Part shown: positions 3,285 through 62,071 of the stretch, in pieces
Layout: every line of letters begins with the position of its first letter
How positions within the stretch are numbered: position 1 is the stretch's first letter
Assembly: GCA_026545225.1 (NCBI GenBank)
Contig: CM048849.1
Span: 53,824,836 to 53,888,835, forward strand
Reading direction: 5' to 3'
DNA: 64,000 nt
Source of the DNA: Cornus controversa
Lineage: Eukaryota; Streptophyta; Magnoliopsida; Cornales; Cornaceae
The notes under the pieces: model-generated
Databases searched by the model: none
What the model was told of the DNA's origin: nothing
What the model saw: only the letters and a program-made list of their open reading frames with translations
Translations under genes and position numbers: made by a program

Positions 3285-4735
3285 TGACTATCTTTGAAGT
3301 CTCTGATTGTGTGCACAATTGCGCTCTTGTGCACCGGTTTGGAAAACGTGATTTGGAAAACTTCAATTGTGTGCACAATTGCGCTCTTGTGCACCGGTCT
3401 GGAAGGCATGATTTGGAAGACTCCGACTGTGTGTACAATTGTGCTCTTGTGTACCGGTCTGGAAGGCGTGATTTGGAAGACTCCGGCTGTGTGTACAATT
3501 GCGCTCTTATACACCGGTCTGGAATGCGTGATTTGGAATATTCCGACTGTGTGTACAATTGTGCTCTTGTGCACCGTCTGGAAGACGTGATCTGGAAGAC
3601 TCCGACTGTGTGTACAATTACGCTCTTGTGCACCGGTCTGGAAGGCGTGATCTGGAAGACTCCGACTGTGTGTACAATTGCGCTCTTGTGCACCGGTCTG
3701 GAAGGCGTAATTTGGAAGACTCCGGTTGTGTGTACAATTGCGCTCTTGTGCACCGGTTTGGAAGGCGTGATTTAGAAGACTCCGGTTGTGTGTACAATTA
3801 CGCTCTTGTGCACCGATTTGGAAAGCGCAATTTGGAAGACTCCGACTGTGTGTACAATTGCGCTCTTGTGCACCGGTCTAGAATGCGTGATTTGGAAGAC
3901 TCCGGCTGTGTGTACAATTGCGCTCTTATACACCGGTCTGGAAGGCGTGATTTGAAATATTCCGACTGTGTACAATTGTGCTCTTGTGCACCGGTCTGGA
4001 AGATGTGATCTGGAAGACTCTAACTGTGTGTACAATTGCGCTCTTGTGCACCGGTCTGGAAGGCGTGATCTGGAAGACTCCGACTGTGTGTACAATTGCG
4101 CTCTTGTGCACCGGTCTGGAAGGCGTGATCTGGAAGACTCCGACTGTGTGTACAATTGCGCTCTTGTGCACCGGTCTGGAAGGTGTGATTTGGAAGACTC
4201 CAGTTGTGTGTACAATTGCGTTCTTGTGCACCGGTCTGGAAGACGTGATTTAGAAGACTCCGGTTGTGTGTACAATTGCACTCTTGTGCACCGGTTTGGA
4301 AGGTGTGATTTGGAAGACTCCGGCTCTGTGTACAATTGCGCTCTTGTGCACCAGTCTGGAAGGTGTGATTTGGAAGACTTCAGCTGTGTGTACAATTGCG
4401 CTCTTGTGCACCAGTCTGGAAGGCGTGATTTGGAAGACTCCGGCTGTGTGTACAATTGCGCTCTTGTACACCGGTCTGGAAAACGTGATTTGGAAGACTC
4501 CGACTGTGTGTACAATTGCGCTCTTGTGCCCCGGTTTGGAATGCGTGATTTGAAAGACTCCGACTATGTGTACAATTACGCTCTTGTGCACCAGTCTGGA
4601 AGGCATGATTTGGAAGACTCCGACTGTGTGTACAATTGTGCTCTTGTGCACCAGTTTGAAAGGCGTGATTTGGAAGACTCCAGCTGTGTGTACAATTGCG
4701 CTCTTGTGCACCAGTCTGGAAGGCGTGATTTTTTT
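3285..4735. repeat. Minisatellite: 60-bp unit, about 24 copies
   Basis: A 60-bp unit around 'tgtgtacaattgcgctcttg' and 'tggaaggcgtgatttggaag' repeats about 24 times with a few substitutions per unit. Two small deletions (1 bp near 3577, 2 bp near 3969) shift the register. Because 60 is a multiple of three and the unit lacks stops in several frames, long ORFs of 20-residue repeats appear on both strands. There is no independent sign that they are translated. The array lies downstream of the gag relic in the minus-strand sense, where the 3' untranslated region of the element would be. Confidence 0.95.
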
Positions 4736-13830: not shown

Positions 13831-15351
13831 TCAGCAGGGGGAGGAATAGCCTACGGACCTCCTGGAGAGAAACACTCTGCAATCGTCTTTTGGACAGATT
13901 GTGGGGGTATAAGCGATGTCATCACAACCATCCGTTCGGTGGCGCTTGAAATCCATCAACGATGTGAAGATGGCAATGAAGAGAACCAAATGGTTCAATG
14001 CATACCTCTGGCCCACACACTGGTGTGCCCCAGTTCCAAATGCTAGAAAGTTCTTCTTGTAAATCCGGTCCTCCTGTCTCTCCTCCATGAACCGGTCGGG
14101 ATCAAACCGGTCCGGTTCCGTAAACCCCTGGAACGAAGACTCAAAAACCGAAGGAAAGACGATCGTCCCCTTCGGTATCGTGTAAGATTCCGTCAACTGG
14201 AAGTCCTTACCGGCAATGTGAGGTACCAGCGTCGCCGGCGCCCGGAATCTGATCACTTCCCTCGCCACCGCCTGTGCATACTTCATCTCCGCCAGCTGCT
14301 CCGCCGTGATCAGTGAGTCAGATTCCGGTGACCATATCCCAGCCACCTCCTCCCGGACCTTCGCGAGCACCTCCGGATGCGAGTCCAGCATTGTCACCGC
14401 CCACAGCAGCGACGATGTGGAGGCGTCCTGAGAAGCGAAGAGGAAATCGAAAAGATGGCCCGCGATCTCCATGCTCGCCGTATGCGGTGGCTCCAACTCA
14501 TCGGAGCCGGCAGATTCTCTAACTATATCTTGCATCCAGAAGTCGATGAGACAGGTCGGCTCGTGTCCGGCCTTCATCTTCTTCTTGCTATCTTCGGCAC
14601 AAAGAGCTAGGGTTTCGACGAGTCTCTTCACGGCAAGTCTGGCTTCTCTGAATGCGAAACCAGGAAAATCAATCGGTAACTTCATCAATCCAACATTGAA
14701 GAGATTGTAATCGCGATTGAATCTCTCTCGAGCTTGTTGACTCAAGTAAGGCCCCACGAAAACGGTCTGTGAGGTTTCCAAGTTCATTTGGCGACAGAGC
14801 AATCGAAGAGCGACAGATTCTGAAAAAGAGCTGAATCTGAGGGCCCACATGTTGAGGTGTCTGAGGATAATGTTATGCTGTATCGCGGTGTAGGTGGAGA
14901 GTGCTTTGGGAGTGAAGTTGGGAGCGATCCGACGGCGGAGGTTTTTATGATCTTGGCCCATCATGTAGATGAGGTTGTGATCGCCGAAAAGTTTCTTGCC
15001 GAAAGGGTGGCCGACAAGGTGGAAGGCATCAGGACGGACGTTGGAGAAGATTTGGTGGGAAAGGTCGGAGGAGCGGACGAAGAGGATGAAGCGGCCGATG
15101 ATGTAGTTGGTGGAGAGACCAAGATTGGATGACTTGGCGATAGCTGATTGGTTGTCCCAGAACTTGGTTGGGTTGCGAACCAGAGAGATGGCGCTGCCGA
15201 TGAAAGGGAGGACCAAATATGGGCCTGGGATTGAGGCTTTTTTCTTGAGGTAAGAGACCTGTTCCAGCAAGAGTAGTAGGCCTAGTAGTGAGAGAAAGTA
15301 TGGAGTGGATGATGAGAGGACGGCCCAGATAGAGGAGAACTCCAAGTCCAT
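13831..15351 (-). CDS. CYP710A: Cytochrome P450 710A, sterol C-22 desaturase
   Basis: Single-exon gene of 506 residues, the usual size and structure for plant CYP710A. Known family role: ER-bound P450s that introduce the C-22 double bond into the sterol side chain, converting beta-sitosterol to stigmasterol. Seen here: an N-terminal membrane anchor (about residues 15-30, [12 protein letters not shown]) followed by a basic/proline hinge (KKKASIPGP). The I-helix region is near 300-315 ([12 protein letters not shown]). The ExxR pair is E365/R368 (EVIR). [10 protein letters not shown] motif lies near 413-421. The haem-binding loop is [10 protein letters not shown] with Cys445 as the thiolate ligand. 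No frame break is present, so the copy looks functional. The first ATG, just upstream of the anchor, is taken as the start. No related biosynthetic gene is adjacent. Confidence is high for the subfamily. Confidence 0.96.
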
Positions 15352-15460
15352 TGTTGTTATATTAGTTGTTCACTTGTTCTCTCTCTCTCTCTCTCTCTCT
15401 CTCTACCTAGTTGAGAAATGATGGGTTAGAGAGAGGAAGTGATATAACAGAAGTGGGATG
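15352..15460 (-). promoter_or_regulatory. CYP710A leader with CT/GA repeat and TATA-like box
   Basis: Upstream of the ATG on the minus strand is a (GA)n tract (plus-strand ctctctctct, about 15377-15404), typical of plant 5' leaders. A 'ttatatcac' TATA-like element (plus gtgatataac) lies at about 15439-15448, roughly 90 bp from the ATG. The assignment is positional. Confidence 0.5.
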
Positions 15461-49000: not shown

Positions 49001-51760
49001 GAGGGAGTAAACAAAAAAGAGAGTAGAAAATTAGGTATTTGACTTTTTATTAAAGAAAAAAGGGAATGGCATAAAAAAAACCTTGACATGTAAAGATTGG
49101 TAATAAACCCCTTTTATAAATTGTCGTTTTCAAATGGACCTTGTTTGGCATGTGACTTTGCTGAGGCACCTTTTTGTGACGAAATGCCCCTTACACTCCA
49201 CTGTACTCTCTCCCTCTTCTCTTTCTCTCTCTAACTTGCCACCCCCACACTACACCAGCACACCACTTGCACTCTCTCTCTCTAAACACGAGTAAGAGAA
49301 CCTTTCACAGATTAAGCTAGACAACTAGAGACCAAACCACTAAAGAAAAAACTAACCTCTTGCCAACTTCTGCAACTCTCTCTCTCTCTCAAAACTCTTC
49401 AAAGCTAAGCTCATTTCCCATTTTAAAATCTACTTGTAATCGCAGTTTCTCTCTCTAAAATAGACACAAAAATACATTGTCTCTATCTGTCGATACACAT
49501 ACACACACATATACATAGATCTACACATGCTGCATGAGTACACACTTATCCAAAATCAATGACTTCCTGAGTCACATGACCCAAGTAACAGAGGTCTTAG
49601 CTCTTTGAGCAATAATCATCGATTCAAGAATGGTTTCACCTCCAATTCATGTACTAAGATTGAACAATCGCAAACTCAAAGTTTAAGATTTTAGGGTTCA
49701 CTTTTATGAAGAATGAGAAAAAAAAGAACACCAACTTAGGATTGCTTGACAATGACAGCAACAATGGTCATGGCTATTGCAACGGAAGCCATGTTTCTCC
49801 ACTTCATTGTCTCGACGAGGCTATCAGTGTCGCTATCAAGCACAGTCGACAATTCTCTTGATGTTCTATTTGCTCGACACCAGGAGAGGCAGCAAGACCG
49901 CTGCTTTCTATTTGAGAAACCATATGCTCGCCTCACACAACTCTACTCTCACGGCAATTCTAATCTGGGTCAGCTCTACGACCTCTTCCTTCAGCTCAAG
50001 GCTACTCAAGGTCCATTTCATTGGGTTAGTGTTTTTGCTCTGATCTTCTCAAAGGTCGTTTGGAACAAATAAAACATATTACCCAAACAGACGACAGTCA
50101 CATAGGCTGCTTTTAGTATATACACCAAAACGACGTCATGACTACATGGGCATTTTAGTAATTCACCCTTTCCGTTAACGGCCATTTACTTCTGTAACCT
50201 TCTCAGTTAGTTGAGTGGGTGTTGTGCCAAAAAAAAAAAAATCATAAAGGGAGTTTATTGCCAATTGCTACAAGTCAAGGGGTTTTATGCAAGTCACCCA
50301 AGAGAAAAACAATAAAGATAGACAAAATAGAGGGGAAGAAGAAGAAAAAAATTAATGATAAAAAATATTTTAATTATTTGTAATTATTATATATTATAGC
50401 ATTAGATAATATATTTATAGAATATTATATTATATCGAAACGGATTATTATCAGACCGAATCAACCATTATCCAAATCCTATTTGTTTAACTAACGAATA
50501 ATTGAATACGGATCGCTAACGGTTTATCGAATTGAATGTTCCAATCCATATCTGAGTTATCAGATCGAATTTGGATCAAAATCTAATCCATTGACAAGTT
50601 TAGCGGAGACCCCTTAATGGGCGCTTAAATTCTATATCAATAGTACATTATTATTTTGGAGTCATGGTTGGCATTGTAAATCTGAGAATGATCATCATGT
50701 TTTTTGGATAGCTTGAGATCTTAGTTGTTATTGGGTTTTGTGCAATTGTATACGGGATGCGCTCCCCTTTTGAGTACTCTTCTATAATATATTACTTATA
50801 AAACAAATAATAATCTTAAACAAAGTCGTAAAAAGGAAAATAAAAGAAAAATCAAGGAATGGCAAGCTAGCCACATATTGATCACATGATGATCCACTTG
50901 ACATGACAATACCGACCAAACACACACAAAGAATCCCTCAAATTCCTATTTCACTGAAACAAAATGCTTCCTCAATTTTATCATAGTTATTATTAAATTT
51001 TGAAGGACTAAACAACTATATAATTAAGAACAAGCCAAATGTAGAATTACCACAAAAATGCAATCATACAAACTGAGTTATCAATTAATAAAAACAAGAA
51101 AGTGCTATCTAATAGCAAGACAACAATTGGGTGTAAGCTCATGTTTAACAAAACCAAAAAGAAAATGACTAGGTCCAAGCTTACTATTAAGCTAATTAGA
51201 ATAGATATATAACAGTAAGAAATGTAAATTTATTAATCATGCAAAAAAGATTAACAGTTCATGAGGATGTGAAAGTCTGATCTAAAATCAAGACAATTGA
51301 AAGAACCAACCGCTCAACAAGCAACCCATGACCTCTGGCTTTGATACCAATTGACCAACATCGGGTTGTGCCATCTCATCTGAAAACCAAGTGGTGTCCA
51401 ATGAGGTAGGTCACACCTTTTATGGCATTCGACATCCAGGGCCCACCTGTGCAAGGAGCGACATTGTTGTATTCTCCCAACAATCCCTTCCCCACGCGAT
51501 GACACTCCTAAGATTCAAACACATGACCTCTGGCTTTGATACCAGTTGACCAAGACCGGGATTCCATAAAATTCAAAAGTAGCACTAATCACATATTAGA
51601 GAAGAGAGATAGAAAAGAAATTGGAAAAGATAAAAAGTAGGGTTAGATCTTTACTATTATACCTGTCGAAGTGTGAAAGATAAGGAATCCAAAAGGATTA
51701 GATAGCTATCCATTGAATCCAGAAACTTCACAATATTGTTTTCACCCTTTTCTCTCTCTT
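43012..51760 (-). CDS. VMA22: VMA22/CCDC115-like V-ATPase assembly factor, first exon not located
   Basis: Six coding exons on the minus strand, 5' to 3': 51760-51663, 45208-45107, 44535-44352, 43971-43916, 43539-43452, 43106-43012. All have AG/GT borders and agreeing phases, giving about 207 residues. In order they encode KFLDSMDSYLILLDSLSFTL; WLELASARHSMGASRINSAL; an acidic variable stretch with FTLCKWLS; and SMFGALVSPKLRAAQLSFET plus LETLVEIANMRSSMLS before the stop. The LVSPKLRAAQ-type motif and length fit the CCDC115/Vma22 family, known to help assemble the V-ATPase Vo sector at the ER. The 5'-most exon starts in mid-codon (two bases), so at least one upstream exon is missing from my model; family proteins usually begin only about 10-20 residues earlier. 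The first intron shown is 6.45 kb and packed with transposons. Family identity is from memory of conserved motifs. Confidence 0.8.
44735..44905 (+). mobile_element. Possible tRNA-derived SINE in a VMA22-like intron
   Basis: An A-box-like 'cttaattcactggta' (44751-44765) and a B-box-like 'gagttcaaatc' (44794-44804) lie about 40 bp apart, as in tRNA-derived SINE heads. The end is not defined. Confidence 0.35.
45682..46108. mobile_element. MITE in the VMA22-like intron
   Basis: The ends 'gcctttttggggaagcttcc' and, reversed, 'gggccctgtttggaggagctt' match imperfectly. Inner sequences (aagtcctaaaaag / gaagtcattcttcaaaggcc) are also partly inverted. About 420 bp, with no coding. Confidence 0.55.
46159..46437 (+). 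mobile_element. Copia-type LTR with adjacent PBS
   Basis: 279 bp from TGTTATATTTGG to CCTCGTCA, with an internal TATA box (cctatataaagg, near 46254). It is followed at 46440 by TGGTATTAGAGC, a one-mismatch match to the usual initiator-Met PBS. The internal copia region is missing; LINE sequence follows within about 60 bp. Confidence 0.65.
46951..48227. mobile_element. 'AGGCGC' family element inserted in the LINE
   Basis: The left end is 'tagttgttaaaggtt...ctaaggcgcc'. The right end, reversed, is 'agtttttaaaggcgcgcctagg'. The 12 outer bases match with one change. The core holds further ggcgcg/aagcgc motifs. The target duplication is not clear. Confidence 0.5.
47017..47536. mobile_element. hAT MITE (TAGGGGTGCACA family)
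   Basis: TIRs TAGGGGTGCACA...TGTGCACCCCTA and an exact 8-bp target duplication AAGACAAT (47009-47016 and 47537-47544). Subterminal ggttccgg/ccggaacc motifs. 520 bp, with no coding. Second copy at 63065-63411. Confidence 0.9.
48735..49008. mobile_element. Stowaway-type MITE (Tc1/mariner)
   Basis: TIRs CTCCCTCCGTCCCA...TGGGACAGAGGGAG with TA target duplications at 48733-48734 and 49009-49010. 274 bp. This TIR is the classic plant Stowaway end. Confidence 0.93.
49062..50299. mobile_element. Non-autonomous Mutator-like element (MULE), 1.24 kb
   Basis: The ends GGGAATGGCATAAAA... and (reversed) GGGTGACTTGCATAAAACCC... continue to match for about 50 bp (gcaattggcaataaactccc versus agattggtaataaacccctt). 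The flanking 9-bp repeats are AAGAAAAAA and AAGAGAAAA. No transposase. The interior has CT-rich leader-like sequence and an ORF pair at 49736-50072. Confidence 0.8.
49746..50072 (+). other. Open reading frame inside the MULE, possibly captured host sequence
   Basis: A 108-codon plus-strand ORF with an overlapping 66-codon antisense ORF. I recognise neither. MULEs often carry host gene fragments, and the GC content here exceeds the flanks, so a captured exon fragment is possible. There is no evidence of expression. Confidence 0.3.
51320..51565 (-). mobile_element. Possible TRIM/LTR fragment with duplicated PBS-like motif
   Basis: On the minus strand 'TGGTATCAAAGC' followed by 'CAGAGGTCATG' occurs twice, at 51349-51338 and 51544-51533, 195 bp apart. 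The motif resembles the initiator-Met PBS region of plant TRIMs. Confidence 0.4.
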
Positions 51761-52009
51761 CTGTAGGAATCCTACCTAGAATTCATTAGCAATCACACCT
51801 TGTATAAGACTGCAATACAAGAAGCTTCAAAAGTTTCTCCCAAATTCTGAAAACTTTAACATGGATATTTATTGGTTATTAGATAATTCCTACTAAAAAG
51901 TAAAAAACAGAAACTTACATTATATGCACACACATATTAATTAAAACCTTAAAATTTTGACTACCAAAGACTATTTTAGAATTTATCAAATTTATATTGA
52001 CTCCAGAAC

Positions 52010-52420
52010 TAAAGATTGGAAAAGAAGGTGCGCATGAATCTTTCGTGGAAGGGTCCCTTCATTTTCAAACTTAGGGGTAATTTGTTAGCAACTAGGATTA
52101 CAGGAGCATTCGATTTTTCAGTGAAACCCCAACCTTCTCGATATTTTTCTATTTGCCTTCGATCGATCCCTAGGAGATAAAAACTAAAGGTCCCCCACCT
52201 GGTAGCGGATAAAAGGGCAAGTCAAGCGTCGAGCGCACTTGACTAATATAATAGAAAGGGTTTTTCCCCATCTTACTAATAAAATAATAAGGGGTTGATT
52301 TGGAGAGCTATGTACACTACTAAAGTCAAGCTTATTAGTGAAAAGAAAGGAGGTAGCGGTGGGAAAACGAGGCGAGGAGCAACGAAAAAAACATAAACAA
52401 AGACTTGATTTAAACCAAAA
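52010..52420. other. Possible organelle-derived (mitochondrial) insert
   Basis: The stretch is richer in G and C than its surroundings. Phrases such as 'tagcggataaaagggcaagt' and 'aggaggtagcggtgggaaaa' recall plant mitochondrial DNA. This is recognition by style only; no organelle gene is identifiable. Confidence 0.25.
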
Positions 52421-52679
52421 TTTAATTATAAAATGTCCACGATGCATCCTATATAAACTTCTCAATTTGCCCTTCTTCTTAATTACTGCCCCACATTCAT
52501 CCCATATTCATAAAACTCTACCTCAAGTCTTGTATAGCTAAAATGAGGATTTTGGAACTTCGAACTTATATCCATTGACACATGGAATCATAGAACCCTT
52601 TGATTGGAATTGATTTTGGAAGCTACAAAAAGTAGATTAAACATTCATCTTTTCCATTGAACCACTGAATCTATTTAGA

Positions 52680-52870
52680 ATTAAAAAGTGGATGTGAAGA
52701 AGTGCCAATTTAGATTTCCATGGAAGGCTATATGGCAGATAAGAGCACTCTCTAACGTAGACTTCTTCCAATGGACTGTGGTGGTAAGCAAGATTTTGGC
52801 TATTGATAACTTATTAAGAAGAAGAAAGTTTACAAACCTTTTTATGCTCCATTGCCTAGTAGTGAGCAAA
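52680..52870 (+). mobile_element. L1-type LINE fragment (zf-RVT region)
   Basis: The plus strand encodes RFPWKAIWQIRALSNVDFFQ and VVVSKILAIDNLLRRRKF, the conserved start of the plant LINE C-terminal zinc-binding region. Truncated on both sides. Confidence 0.75.
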
Positions 52871-53683
52871 CAAGAATCATGGAGTTATGGATACGACAAT
52901 ACAAACACGACAATGACAAATTCTTACAAAAATAAATATCATACGAATACGGAGATGGCATGACAATGATATATAAATGTAAATATTGTATAATTGTATC
53001 AGAAGGTAAGTGAGAAGTATATAGTAGTGAGCAAGCATGAATCGCAAGTATGTGAGAAGTATCAGAACTTTGTTCAACAAAAAATATTTCATTTTCAAAT
53101 CATGAATGCAATTGGGAAGTATCTAACACAGAGAGAAGACGAACACACCTCCTTATAGAAGCATACATGCTTCATAGTGAGAGAGTCATGGGCTCTTCTC
53201 TCTTTATTTGGCATCCATCGAGTTATAACTAGCTCAACATTAGATTCTTTGGCTAGGTGGAGATGGGCCAGTGTGAGCAGGCCTTTTGGCAAAAGAAAGT
53301 TTTTATGCCTAAGGTAGTAAATTTGAATAGAGAAAATACATGATATGCCCATTAATACATTGAAGAGCTTTCTTCTAAGCTCCCTTAGCTTTTGGATCAC
53401 AGGGATGTCTGCATTTTTTACTTTTTGCAAAATACAAGATTAAGGATATGTATGGATAGATTTTTGCATATATTGGTCTGTAAATTTGTTGCAACCTTCA
53501 ATCTTTGAAATTTATTTATCTACAGAAAAAATAAAGAATAGGAAGTATTTGAAGCCTTACTCGCAGGAATTTTTAACATAAGGTGACAAACCACTATATT
53601 GAATCATGATTGCGCACTTCTCGCTTAGACCCTTGAACAACCCATATTTCCCTATTCAAGGAGCCCCAAGTTCATGCTGATAC
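52871..53683. other. Sequence between LINE fragment and duplicated LARP6A block, no gene seen
   Basis: AT-rich. A 111-codon minus ORF (53430-53095) shows no recognisable domain. If the VMA22-like gene has its own first exon, it would be expected in or near 51761-53683, but I could not find a convincing one. Confidence 0.4.
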
Positions 53684-56600
53684 AGACTAAAAACTCGTTA
53701 ACAAGTCCAACATCTGGCTTTCAGAAATAATGAAGTAACCCATGAAAGTTCTTGTAGACACATGATTGATTCTGATCCAAAATTTTTAGTTAATGAGTTA
53801 TCGTATCCTTTCGCACATATTTAATGTGTATCTGTAAATATAATAACAAATGTGTTGATCAATCAACAGCAATGCGTTAGGTAAGTGTTTTTCAAGGAAA
53901 AGAGGCATCAAATTTAAATAACCTAAAGAAAAGAATTTTTGCAAGTAAAAGTTTGATTAAAGACCACTAAAGAGGATGCACCCTTGTAGACAAGGTTGTA
54001 TACGTAGAGTATCAATATTCTATACCAAGACTATAGCCTTGCCACTCTGAGAAAACTACAAAAGAATCAACTGAAGATCAACTCCACTTGGTAATCCAAG
54101 AAAAAATCAATAGCATGTATTTCAAAGAGAGTGCAAACAACTTTACCCCTTCGAATGACCATCCCTTACCCTCACTTAATAAGCATCAGTCATTTACCAC
54201 TCAGGAGGAGAAAAAAAAATGCCACACCAGTCTTGGCTTTGGAGTCTTGACCCACTCTTAAACCTCTCCAATAGCTAGCACTTCCCCTAATGGTCCCTCA
54301 ACAGGAACTCTAGAAAGTGCTAACAAGAGAAACAATAGATCTCTAGTCACCAAAAAAATAGCAACAGGTGACTAACCACTTCAACCTCCCTTTTACACAT
54401 GCAACATGATTGATAAGCTCCGCCTCTTCAAGAACATCCATCTTTTGCAAGTTCACCATACACATTTGAAAACTACATGAGTATTAATTAATTAGATATG
54501 GTAACATGTCGTTTGACTGAAATTATAGCCTTAGAAACCGACCCCAAATAGTTGGGAGTATTGAGTATTATTAATTGACAACTAGAAGGATACAATTTAG
54601 TGTTACTTACATTGAGTAGTGACACAACCTCAGTTTTCTTCCCCAAACACTCTCGATAGAAGAAATAACAATACAATTTATTAGCAAAATAAAGTTTTAG
54701 GGGCAAATTGCGACTTTGAAATCAAATACCATTGTTTTGAACCTAAAATTTTCCCATTAATTTCTTAAACTTCAATCAAGTGAATTAGAGTTTTGAGATT
54801 TACATAAAACCAAACCATTTTTTTATTGGGGGCAACTCTTACTATACCATGGCTTCAACCTGGCATAATTTTGTTTCCCACTGTGACTGTACATGCTAGT
54901 CTGAATCCTCTGATCTAATATTTATTTTGATACAACTACAATATAACTACTTTAATTATTTTTTAGAAGAAGATATAGTTTACAAAGATACTGTGGAACA
55001 AGGACACGTATGCCAAGCTGAGGGAAAAGGACAAAAAGAACAGGGATTAAGACCTGCTCTGAAAAAAAAAAAAAAAGAAGAAGAAGAAATGGGAACATAG
55101 TTTATACAACATAAGCAGTTTACCCAAACATTATCACTTGGAATCAACAATTTGAAGAAATGATATTGACATCTTCAAAACGCTAAATCTGAATGGAAAT
55201 AAACCAAAAATTAAGCACTCACCAAATCCTTCCTTCTCCTTGGTAACATATTTCATCAAAATGTTGTCAGTAGGAAGATTTTCATCACTAAAGTAATTCT
55301 CTACCTACAAAAAGATAAAACTAAGTCAAGTCCAGAAAGGAGGCATTTTAATATGTTGAAAGTGGTCAACATGTAGCCAAAACATCTAAAATTAAGAACA
55401 TAAATGCTTATTTGAGATTTATGGCCAATCGATCATTGCTTTCTTTGTATGGATAACCACCCTAGATGAGCTTTTGAAGGCAGCTTGCTTGAGTAGTAGG
55501 AACCAAACCAAAGGGTAATCCAGCTAATAATATAAAAAGGAAAAGCAAAAAAAAAAAAAAAAAGAGCTGAAGTTAAGCGACAATAAATTAGAAAGGTATA
55601 TTGATCCTTCCTGTTCAAGTGAGCCAACATCAAAATTCTGATGGTTCATTTCCACTATTGATGCCAATGTGATGCCACTTAAAAATTGAAAATAAAACGA
55701 TAGCCTGCGGCTCTTCAGAACACGACGTGGTTCCTATACATACCTAGATGGCTTCTGTTAATTATGAATATAGAAAGAGATCTGACGATCTAGAAGTAAA
55801 TTTGGTGATCGGTTTGTCAAGAAACTTATTAATTCTATCTGAAATATAGCGCTCAGCCACTCACAGTATATGGGGTGGTCTTTTCATGATTTTGTAGGTG
55901 TAGCTCCTTCTGAGATCTGACTGCTTATTAAAAAATTAAGCTTACATATACCGTTTTTAATATATGCGGGAATACTTGTTCAAGGGAAAGACAGCTCTAA
56001 TTGAAAGGCAAGGAAGGCCACCCCAAAAAATATTCGACATCTTCAACCTATCAAGGGTTTTGTACCTTTTGTCACTCTGCTACCAAAAATATATATGTGC
56101 ACAATGGTGTAAGTGCATGCAGTATTGTTTTGGAAGATGTCCCTTCACTCAGGACATTTCCTAGAACCTTCACAATCTCTCCAAACATTGTCTTCCATCT
56201 CTAATATGTTCCATGGATAGCATTCAAAAGCAAGAACTGTGGTGGCATTTACTCTCAAAAGACTCATAGTTAATGATTTAACACAAATATTAATTAAAAA
56301 AGCTTTTCAAAGTACATTCAATTAAAATCTCAGTAATGGCTTGTATGTAATTGATGAAAAAATAAATCTGAAGAACAAGCAGGAGATATCAGGAAGACGA
56401 AGGCAGTTATTTTGGATATAATTTAACAATAATAAAAGGATACCTTCCATTTCAAAAAGCATGATTCATTAACCTCCTCTTGTATGCCAAGAAGATTTAA
56501 GGAAAATGAAATGAAATGGAATCTAACGCTTAATAGTACTGGATGCTTTTTTAAGTACAAAAGTTAAATGAAAAATGAAAGGCAAAGCCAATATGTCAAC

Positions 56601-57545
56601 TTATTTCAGTCTAACAATTGTCCAAAAAAAAGTATAATTGAGCATCTCAGCTTATCATTTTGTTTTTCTCCCGCTTGATTGAAGACCAAATAGAGTATTA
56701 TCCAAAAGGTTTAGGCATCTATGACTTAAAATCACATCAGATTCCAAAATTGAACAAATAAAACACTACTCATAAAGCTTAATACCCAACTTGGATTAAA
56801 CATAACAATTCTGAATCCAGTACAATAAATGAAACCCTTGAACCCTATACTCCAATTCCAAAAACACAATCCGCATCATTTATAAGCCTAGTTGGATTAA
56901 ACATAATAACTTTGAGTATATCTAAAATACTATTTAATTTTTTTTAAAAAAAGGTACAGTATAAATGAAAGCAAAACCGAGCAAGCCTTGGTGACCAACA
57001 GAGTAGAAACTACTAATAGTATATACATATATGAGTGTATATGGAGAGAGAGAGAGTTGCCTGGTTGATGATCTTGTCAGGAAGATCATCGGTGAGAGCG
57101 AGGGTCTGAGAAGACGAATGGTCATCAGATGGCTTCGGAACTTGTTGTAAGTGAGAGTCAGGCGATCCGATTGTTGAGAAGTAAGGATCCTCCGCTGGAG
57201 ATGACGGGGTCACGGCGTTGGCGGTGGCGGCAGCGACTCCCTCGGATTCCATTCGCACGGAGGGAGGAGGAAAGCGGAGCGTGAGAGTTAAACGAGAAAT
57301 GTGAATAACCTTGGACACTTTTTCTTCTCCTGCTCTTTCAACGCTGATTCTGGAACCATCATCTTCTCCTCTAAAAGCATGTCAGTAGGTGTTGATCCTA
57401 ATCCCATGCGGATCTAATCTTATAACATTTATTCGATAATTCATTAATAATTCGAATTCGACACTTTATTTAACCAGACAAATTTAACATAAACCATGAT
57501 CAATTAATCATGAATAATAATTCAAATTGATATAATATAATATAT
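53684..57545 (-). repeat. Segmental duplication, copy B (LARP6A exons 1-2 and flanks)
   Basis: Direct partner of 25435-29250, about 28 kb away, with scattered substitutions and indels. Copy B has about 205 bp (about 54651-54858) absent from copy A. It lacks the 127 bp of copy A at about 28960-29086 that contain the TATA box. Confidence 0.9.
55224..57252 (-). pseudogene. Truncated LARP6A duplicate (exons 1 and 2 only)
   Basis: Exon 1 is 57252-57061 (64 codons, starting MESEGVAAA). Exon 2 is 55305-55224 (VENYFSDENLPTDNILMKYV...). Both are open, with the same splice borders as the parent, including the GC donor of intron 1 and the phase-1 end of exon 2. The copy stops within intron 2, so it lacks the rest of the La motif, the RRM and SUZ-C. 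One Tyr of the YYFSDENL motif is Asn here. The promoter TATA is deleted. It is most likely a pseudogene, but its open exons could be spliced to the VMA22-like exons downstream. Confidence 0.85.
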
Positions 57546-59624: not shown

Positions 59625-62071
59625 CTAAACCAAAACCAAAACAAGCAAAATCCCAGAACCCAACATTAACCCCAACCCTCCAAATCCCTTTGTGTTAGAT
59701 CCTGACACTGCCACCCTCACATCATCCACCACCGGTCCGCACAGAGAGCTCTGATCATCGCTCCTTGTATTGTAATACACGCTGCAGAACGCAACGCGCG
59801 TCCTCTCGGCCTTGGCGGTGAAATTCAGAATAGCAGCATGGAAGGTGGCATTGGCATTGGGTGTGTAATGGATGCTCTGGGCTTGATCTCCAGCATAGGC
59901 CATGACTGCTAGTGGTTGCTTGCATGAGTCTCCTGCATGGCCCAAAGAAAAGGTCAACTTGTATTGCTTGTTGGGCATGGTTTCCACCATCTGGGAGATT
60001 ATGCCTTCCTTGCCAGAGAGCAATTCGATGGCACGTTTGCCTTGTGGGACAGTGTAATGGTATGAGTCGATGTAACGAACAGCCCTGTTTGATTCAACTA
60101 TCCAACCGGGCAACGAGGATGTTTCTTCGTCAAGGTTGGTGGGGAGTAAGACGCCGAGTGAAGCATTTCTGAACATCCATGGACCTTCTTCAAAATCACC
60201 GTTTAGTACTGCATTATCTGCAACATTGTCATTGCATGTCAATAAGTTTCTAAACCACTATTTAAGGTTTCCTAAGCTTTAGTACAAGACAACACACAAG
60301 TTCACCGACCATTATATTTATTTATGTGAGAACTCCCCTCCGGTCCCTCTAGTGCCCAGGTTTACTACAATTAGGGATGAGTAACGTTGGTGTCACTAGT
60401 AACTCACCCTTGGTAAAATGGATGACATTATATAACACTGACATCATCTATTTTAATAACGTTAACCCCCCACCACTATTAATTAATTACAAACAAGGTC
60501 GAATGAGTCAGGTACTACAATGAATGAAATTGACATCATCCGGTTTAATACCGTCAACCACCACTATTAATTACAAACAGCATCGCACAAAAGACCGTAA
60601 CGAAAGAGGCTGCGAGATGGAGTGGCTAAAATTTCAGCATCAATCATATGTGAGATTGATGATTAGTGTTACCTACCTTTGGGTTTATCAGGGGTGAAGA
60701 GCTCCTTGATTGCAATATCATCAATGATGGGCCCACAGGTGGGGTCATCCTCCATCCCGGGATTTCTAAAAACCACCTGCGCATCATCCTGCTCCGCCTG
60801 AAACGCCCACGCGTAGGAATCCCAGCCCTGCACGTTGTACAGAGTCTGCAGATCAATGGTCTGCGACGCGGGAGGCACAGACACGTTGAGTGACTCGAGC
60901 TGAGCGCAGGTGCGCGCGGCACTGAACGTGACGGAGTAGAGCGAGCCCTTTTGGACCTTGGTTTCTTGGCTGATCTCTGCGTCGTTGCCGAGCCTCACGG
61001 CGTGTGTACCCTGTGGTACGATGAGGAACATCGCACCTTGTTTTTGCCCAGATTCCACTAGCTCTACGGTGCCGTCTGATTTCCAGCCGGGGATCGTCAC
61101 ATGTCCATCTCCGACACCGTCGTCTGAGAAGCCTCCTGACGGTGGGGTCTCGAAGTCACCGTTGATCAGTAGACCTGCAAGATCAGATGTTAACAAGCGA
61201 AATCCATGGGACCCACAAAAGTACCATAGCACAATAGGGCGCGCACACATCGTAGCATATCTCATTTGTCATTTTAGCAGTGATGTGATTATGAACAGAA
61301 TAAGGACCAGTTTCATTCAACCCTGCGGGCGCGTTAAGCGCACGGGCCCCACCACCCACCGCCTGGCTCGCCTTTTCGCGCGCCGATCGTTGCAAAGATC
61401 GAGAGAGAGTTTTGTCTCGCTGTTTCCAGACACCGATCGAGATGGGTTTAAGAATAGTCCACATTATACACTATTTCGATATAAGAGTAAGAATAGTCCC
61501 ACGTATATATTTTTACATGTATAAAAGGTTAACATTCGACGGACATGACAAAATTATTCTATAATTATTAATCGTTGAATTATTTTTAGACAAAAGAATA
61601 AGAAACAAATCTTGAAGGGTAATTCTATAATTTTACTTTTATATGTGGATACATATATGTGTAAAAAAAGTTATTCCAGGTTCCGAGAGGGGTCGGGTGT
61701 AAAAAAATAAAAAATTAAATATACGTAATCTTATCTTACCTCTACGTGGAAAAAGACAGAGACAGTTAGTGCTTAAAATTCGAGACAAATTTAAATAGCT
61801 AGGAAAAAATAATGACTTTTTTTTTTCACAAGAATAGCAATCAAATCTCAAACATAAGAAAGACCCATCAAATTAAAGGTTAATTGGGAGGCGAAGAGAT
61901 TAATTACAGACACTGCTATATAATTCTGAGCTAGAGAGAGAAAAATTTCAGTAATAAGATGTAGAGAGAGAAACAGAGAGCCGTACCGTCTTCTGCTAGT
62001 ACAGTAGCTAAATGAGCGAAGATAAGCATATACATTGAGACCCATTTGCCTCTTGTTGAGCTCCAAACCAT
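59625..62071 (-). CDS. DUF642 cell-wall protein, probably GPI-anchored (3 exons)
   Basis: Coding exons on the minus strand, 5' to 3': 62071-61987, 61174-60677, 60217-59625. They total 1176 nt and 391 residues with agreeing phases and GT/AG borders. Exon 1 encodes an N-terminal signal peptide (MYMLIFAHLATVLA) and the start of the mature protein (EDG). Exons 2 and 3 each encode one galactose-binding-like DUF642 domain, starting NGDFETPPSGG and NGDFEEGPWMF. Each ends with a CGP(I/V)(I/V)DD motif (DPTCGPIIDDIAIK; SLCGPVVDDVRV). A hydrophobic tail (GLGLMLGSGILLVLVLV) follows, typical of a GPI-anchor signal. Known family members are secreted wall proteins that bind polysaccharide or pectin methylesterase partners and affect growth. 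The gene appears intact. Intron 2 holds a two-copy ~90-bp repeat. Confidence 0.95.
60441..60590. repeat. Two-copy ~90-bp direct repeat in DUF642 intron 2
   Basis: 'gacatcatctattttaataa ... ccaccactattaatta ... caaacaaggtcg' is followed by 'gacatcatccggtttaatac ... ccaccactattaatta ... caaacagcatcg'. Confidence 0.75.

Follow-up and report, generated by a model that had tools for sequence, protein, structure and literature searches.

Can a conserved gene that has no recognisable start codon of its own be served by the front part of an unrelated gene lying upstream? This question is raised by a 64,000-nucleotide stretch of Cornus controversa DNA (the window; C5:53824836-53888835, C5 being contig CM048849.1), in which exons 1 and 2 of a LARP6A gene, referred to here as the head, precede a gene of the Vma22/CCDC115 family, referred to as VMA22. 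Comparisons were drawn from the same 771.7-Mb assembly, and positions without prefix are those of the window. The extent and identity of copied blocks were determined using BLAST. The name LARP6A was taken from the original prediction, the La domain being the part tested. Pfam cut-offs were 37.1 bits for the La domain (PF05383) and 28 bits for PF21730, the VMA22 family. The head-VMA22 arrangement is real and structurally clean, with both parts on one strand, as had been predicted, here the minus strand. A start of VMA22 free of LARP6A residues is somewhat better supported than a fusion of the two genes.

The six VMA22 exons on C5 (v1 to v6, minus strand) were located at 51760-51663, 45208-45107, 44535-44352, 43971-43916, 43539-43452 and 43106-43012, the last containing the stop codon. 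All six are open and bounded by GT-AG splice sites. Together they exceed the cut-off of PF21730, scoring 38.9 bits in the corrected joined frame of 298 residues described below (41 bits with exon 4 misframed), whereas the locus differs from the family in having no recognisable native start codon. As predicted, v1 opens with two bases that complete a codon; it is followed directly by GTATAA. Upstream of v1 no in-frame ATG occurs before stops are reached, and the first ATG is that of Met17 inside v1. When initiated at Met17, the protein still scores 33.8 bits, the profile match then running from position 12 instead of 3. No relatives of solved structure were found at expect values (E) up to 1, using a query with exon 4 in the wrong frame.

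Head exon 1 was confirmed at 57252-57061 (minus strand, phase 0, 64 codons). It has a donor of the GC type (CAG/GCAACT), as does exon 1 of the apparently complete LARP6A gene in the window (CAG/GCAAAT); the five exon-1 copies read through to the exon end all have GC in place of GT at the start of intron 1 (57060 and 28669 in the window). Exon 2 exists as predicted, except that its ends, given as 55305-55224, were one base off, and joining the exons as written gives stops. The true exon (55304-55223, minus strand, 82 nucleotides) holds the first half of the La motif, is bounded by an acceptor ending in ...TTTTTGTAG and the donor GTGAGT, and stops after the first base of a codon, so that this part of the prediction holds with the corrected ends. 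Against PF05383 the head scores 34.2 bits, under the cut-off, covering profile positions 1-31 of 59. It thus resembles LARP6 in that both exons match the complete copy, and differs in holding neither a complete La motif nor the rest of the La module. None of the later LARP6A exons was found adjoining the head, and the only exon 3 that turned up in the genome is that of the complete gene.

The complete gene lies at 28855-20478 on the minus strand, placing the head about 28 kb upstream of it. Exon 1 (28855-28670) and exon 2 (26861-26780) are followed by exon-size pieces, which were located in order, the full coding sequence not being assembled; its La domain is full-length (88.1 bits). The duplicated part of the head, compared with this copy, extends over 57440-53684 (minus strand; 53684 from the alignment, 53681 as the BLAST end) and aligns to 29164-25433. 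Identity amounts to 88.8% and 89.4% in the two introns and 90.3% and 93.9% in the two exons, and homology to copies on C2 goes on upstream of 57440. The duplication that had been proposed is therefore more than chance similarity, which is ruled out by introns that are collinear and about 89% identical across 3.7 kb.

Joining the two head exons to the six VMA22 exons leaves 298 codons open across eight exons with matching phases, resulting in a chimeric open frame whose splice sites are all canonical, apart from the GC donor that ends exon 1. The phase match had been said to occur by chance one time in three, and it goes no further than that.

The prediction called for a check on whether another intact VMA22 exists. 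VMA22 exons were found at two loci, the one in the window and C2:28924782-28929223. Of the 15 matches obtained with E no higher than 10, six were on C5, five on C2 and four, weak, on C8 and C9; the latter were rejected as VMA22 copies (25-34% identity, three of the four with stops). A profile search of the genome with PF21730 gave two matches under the cut-off, on C3 and at 49.58 Mb on C2, and missed both known loci, so that it is uninformative; the C3 match was rejected as lysine/glutamate-rich. The C2 locus carries a nonsense codon within v6 and differs from C5 by 17 nonsynonymous and seven synonymous changes over 208 codons. Given that nonsense codon, the C5 gene, whose exons are all open, is the candidate working VMA22.

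The C2 locus shares the arrangement as well. C5 56342-50128, running from LARP6A intron 1 into VMA22 intron 1, is 93.2% identical to C2:28920231-28926413, and C5 45767-42623 is 93.1% identical to C2:28926443-28929600. Because the head-VMA22 junctions are common to both, the arrangement predates the copying between C5 and C2. VMA22 intron 1 contains about 4.4 kb on C5 (45767-50128) where C2 has about 30 bases, reflecting either an insertion on C5 or a deletion on C2.

Outside the complete gene, five copies of LARP6A exon 1 were compared. Only the head and copy D on C2 (28932086) are open. The C2 counterpart of the head ends after 11 codons (MESERVATATT followed by a stop, 28918757), copy A (28846149) is frameshifted, and copy B (28874898) has lost both ATG and frame. 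Open single-exon MADS-box frames of about 196-212 residues from the first Met occur shortly downstream of exon-1 copies at C2:28846600-28847500, 28875400-28876400 and 28932550-28933600; the one frame tested, the last, contains an SRF-TF domain (88.1 bits). Another MADS-box copy lies behind the truncated exon 1 of the head counterpart (C2:28918757). We take the MADS-box frames on C2 to be of type I.

That no gene intervenes between head and VMA22 stands in so far as none was recognised, but the gap holds a discrete segment, referred to as X, which reaches from the LARP6A break to VMA22 (53683-51762, minus strand, 1.9 kb) and for which other copies were found on C2 and C7 only. The C2 copy shows 96.5% identity without gaps. 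The C7 copy (C7:1657050-1658597) is diverged, with collinear blocks at 74-86% identity. Its homology begins at 53671, about 10 bases off the end of the LARP6A homology, and ends exactly at 51762, adjoining the VMA22 coding sequence. On C7 the final 111 nucleotides of X occur as a tandem pair, both members having the same end, and the 7.1 kb of C7 compared gave no match to VMA22 exons. Searches with queries of 288, 544 and 119 bases, taken from X or from its end, matched C5, C2 and C7 only; they skip very common words, by which a high-copy relative could escape. A high-copy repeat at the end of X was rejected on these matches at E up to 10. A small nucleolar RNA was likewise rejected, the window having no Rfam match at gathering thresholds; three sub-threshold matches fell in 51600-52300 (E 0.62-4.6), and the fold of the X end was no better than that of shuffles (z 0.89). 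X appears to be a discrete low-copy segment and not an ordinary intron, its placement against VMA22 being the simplest reading. If X is a segment set against VMA22, the acceptor AG of v1 arises across the X-VMA22 junction.

How, then, is VMA22 started? We consider it just probable that a LARP6A-free start, lying either within X or at Met17, is the source of VMA22. The front of LARP6A, copied in truncated form with the promoter-proximal region, exons 1 and 2 and part of intron 2, would have come, together with X, against the VMA22 coding sequence, and the shared junctions place this earlier than the copying of the block between C5 and C2. The original start of VMA22 was probably lost or displaced in the same event, given that the ATG is missing and that X runs precisely up to the coding sequence; of the predicted outcomes, in which the duplication had replaced or joined the VMA22 5' end, replacement is better supported and joining weaker. 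C5 VMA22 would most likely still be made without LARP6A residues, transcription beginning in X and translation either in a short exon within X or at Met17. The head would then be a passenger evolving without visible constraint, although some in-frame read-through fusion may also arise, given that the head retains its promoter-proximal sequence as well as intact splice sites and frame.

Two contrasts between C5 and C2 argue for such a start. Differences were counted at 65 of 1879 sites in X, compared with 212 of 3929 in the flanking introns, represented by portions of LARP6A introns 1 and 2 and VMA22 intron 1 (Fisher p = 0.001); being less diverged, X appears to have been held back, like a leader or promoter. 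In VMA22 itself, the stretch up to Met17, counted through the A of its ATG, shows five differences in 48 sites, compared with 19 in 575 for the remainder (p = 0.03), a pattern that looser constraint ahead of Met17 would give.

Several points weigh against the LARP6A-free start. Short candidate first exons in X are not above chance, six being found and 5.2 expected in shuffles with a donor matrix that was assumed and not fitted; hence the prediction that no convincing native first exon lies there carries little weight. The best-scoring candidates per phase (ATG 52271 and ATG 53168) are both broken in C2. If inserted, X would have no reason to bring a VMA22 promoter. Neither p value takes account of the several tests made, the low divergence of X could reflect gene conversion or the local mutation rate, and N-termini of proteins are often variable anyway. 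Finally, the 17 nonsynonymous to seven synonymous differences do not demonstrate constraint on C5 VMA22.

The explanation that survives next best, possible though hardly probable as the main source of VMA22, is the chimera. The promoter of the head would drive a transcript in which exon 2 (ending at 55223) is spliced to v1 behind the acceptor AG ending at 51761, and the product would have 298 residues, of which 91, with an incomplete La motif, derive from LARP6A and stand ahead of VMA22 (junction KEKEGF/EEREK). The open eight-exon frame with its matching phases speaks for it, as do the lack of an ATG ahead of Met17, the coincidence of the X end with the coding start and the v1 acceptor spanning that junction. 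The sequence just upstream of head exon 1 (57355-57253) moreover retains 92% identity with the complete-gene copy, and of the five exon-1 copies outside the complete gene, the head alone has exon 2 and an open VMA22 following in place.

Set against this, the phase match is the expected one in three, the frame is lost in the C2 counterpart, and X has diverged less than the introns have. Exon 2 of the head has N where the complete copy has Y (VENYF versus VEYYF), and its acceptor is TAG, in place of the CAG found both in the complete copy and in the C2 counterpart. Nine substitutions unique to head exon 1, relative to the complete gene and three C2 copies, comprise eight nonsynonymous and one synonymous; with a site expectation of about three to one (binomial p = 0.70), these indicate neither purifying selection nor a significant excess. 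The same count for exon 1 of the complete gene gave seven to three, so that this exon is loosely held there too. Using substitution and indel rates from introns, neutral survival of the head frame and splice sites was estimated at 0.14 if half of the divergence fell on the head, and at 0.31 if three tenths did. The intactness of the head by itself is thus no evidence of use, and with the eight-to-one ratio, the lost C2 frame and survival attributable to chance, no selective maintenance of the joined frame is apparent. The predicted possibility of a chimeric protein is supported in part: the open frame and the 5' junction shared with C2 stand in its favour, and against it stand these findings, the conservation of X and the score that VMA22 reaches from Met17. 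Its strict form, in which the only intact VMA22 lost its own start to X and would now be expressed solely as a LARP6A-VMA22 fusion from the duplicated LARP6A promoter, is rather doubtful.

X may also be native, providing the VMA22 promoter, first exon and first intron, with C7 carrying a captured piece and the head having merely landed upstream of an undamaged gene. We regard this as unlikely; it is a special case of the LARP6A-free start, and its share is counted there. Conservation of X between C5 and C2 favours it, and so does a short candidate exon (ATG 53607 to 53592) that is unchanged in C2 and has a similar ATGATTCAGTATAGAG/GTTTGT on C7. The C7 homology, however, ends about 10 bases off the LARP6A break on one side and exactly at the VMA22 coding sequence on the other, the 111-nucleotide tandem pair with its common end is unexpected for a randomly captured gene piece, and the C7 sequence compared matched none of the VMA22 exons.

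It is improbable that both VMA22 loci are pseudogenes, the species lacking VMA22 or having a copy absent from the assembly: a start codon is recognised at neither locus, and the C5-C2 differences and the C2 nonsense codon agree with decay, but the six C5 exons are all open with GT-AG sites, and loss should be harmful to judge by yeast, in which, according to the part of a plant V-ATPase review consulted (PMC9280200), a Vma12-Vma22 heterodimer acts in V-ATPase assembly. The same part names Arabidopsis orthologues for Vma12 and Vma21.

LARP6A exon 2 has had a second fate. With the exon and its flanks as query, 15 matches were obtained: the head, its C2 counterpart, the complete gene, an inverted piece on C2 and 11 matches starting at 55372. 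Ten of the latter were read, and each contains the equivalent of 55372-54907, a 466-bp LARP6A piece, which in L042 is in two pieces. These loci (L039 to L048) lie on C10, C9, C7, C6 (twice), C4, C8 and C2 (three times), within elements that are CACTA-like; the superfamily name is our assumption from the end motif. L040, L041 and L043 to L046 are 98.4-99.6% identical to L039, L042 about 97%, and L047 and L048 about 95%, outside the LARP6A piece too. As seven copies, L039 included, are at least 98.4% identical to L039, the spread looks recent. Exon 2 is open in nine of the ten copies read, L042 not being translated. The motif CACTACAAGA lies at, or at most 5 bases from, the alignment break in five of the six loci printed, the break of the sixth falling inside the element; the terminus was seen at one end in loci fetched over about 3.2 kb. 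Over about 193 bases, L039 shares 96.4% identity with the head, compared with 93.7% for the complete gene. By these identities, a CACTA-like family has evidently acquired the head-type exon 2.

Gene capture by Pack-CACTA elements was reportedly described by Catoni in 2019 and by Zabala and Vodkin in 2007. The elements found here, with CACTACAAGA ends and the 466-bp LARP6A piece, resemble Pack-CACTA as covered in part of PMC13317346. They represent a parallel fate of the LARP6A piece, whereas the head-VMA22 arrangement spans far more of LARP6A and is not accounted for by them. Chimeric genes that arose by partial duplication or by the capture of fragments in transposons are familiar from plants according to that part of the same source (PMC13317346), and the present locus is like them in that a 5' fragment with its upstream region stands ahead of another coding sequence in compatible phase. 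It differs in being a genomic copy with introns, known from DNA alone, and in that the gene downstream is a conserved one rather than the passenger of a transposon. Literature searches on plant LARP6 or La motif duplication and on CCDC115, TMEM199 and Arabidopsis gave no such fusion by title, the fusion itself not being a search target.

Elsewhere in the window, self-comparison revealed an array of tandem units of about 60 bp at 3293-4731, with open frames on both strands. A cytochrome P450 frame lies at 13831-15369 on the minus strand (PF00067, 155.9 bits). A DUF642 gene occupies 59625-60257 and 60669-61268, also on the minus strand; the first piece scores 69.8 bits against PF04862, and the second was assigned by eye.

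Should the fusion be real, a conserved gene would have survived the loss of its 5' end by adopting promoter and leading exons from a gene unrelated to it, and a V-ATPase assembly factor would be sustained by a borrowed promoter, a borrowed start codon and half a La motif. The decayed sister locus on C2 and the dispersed, transposon-borne exon would then offer built-in comparisons. Should the fusion be unreal, the locus would illustrate that open chimeric frames can persist as passengers in a plant genome and mislead gene models.

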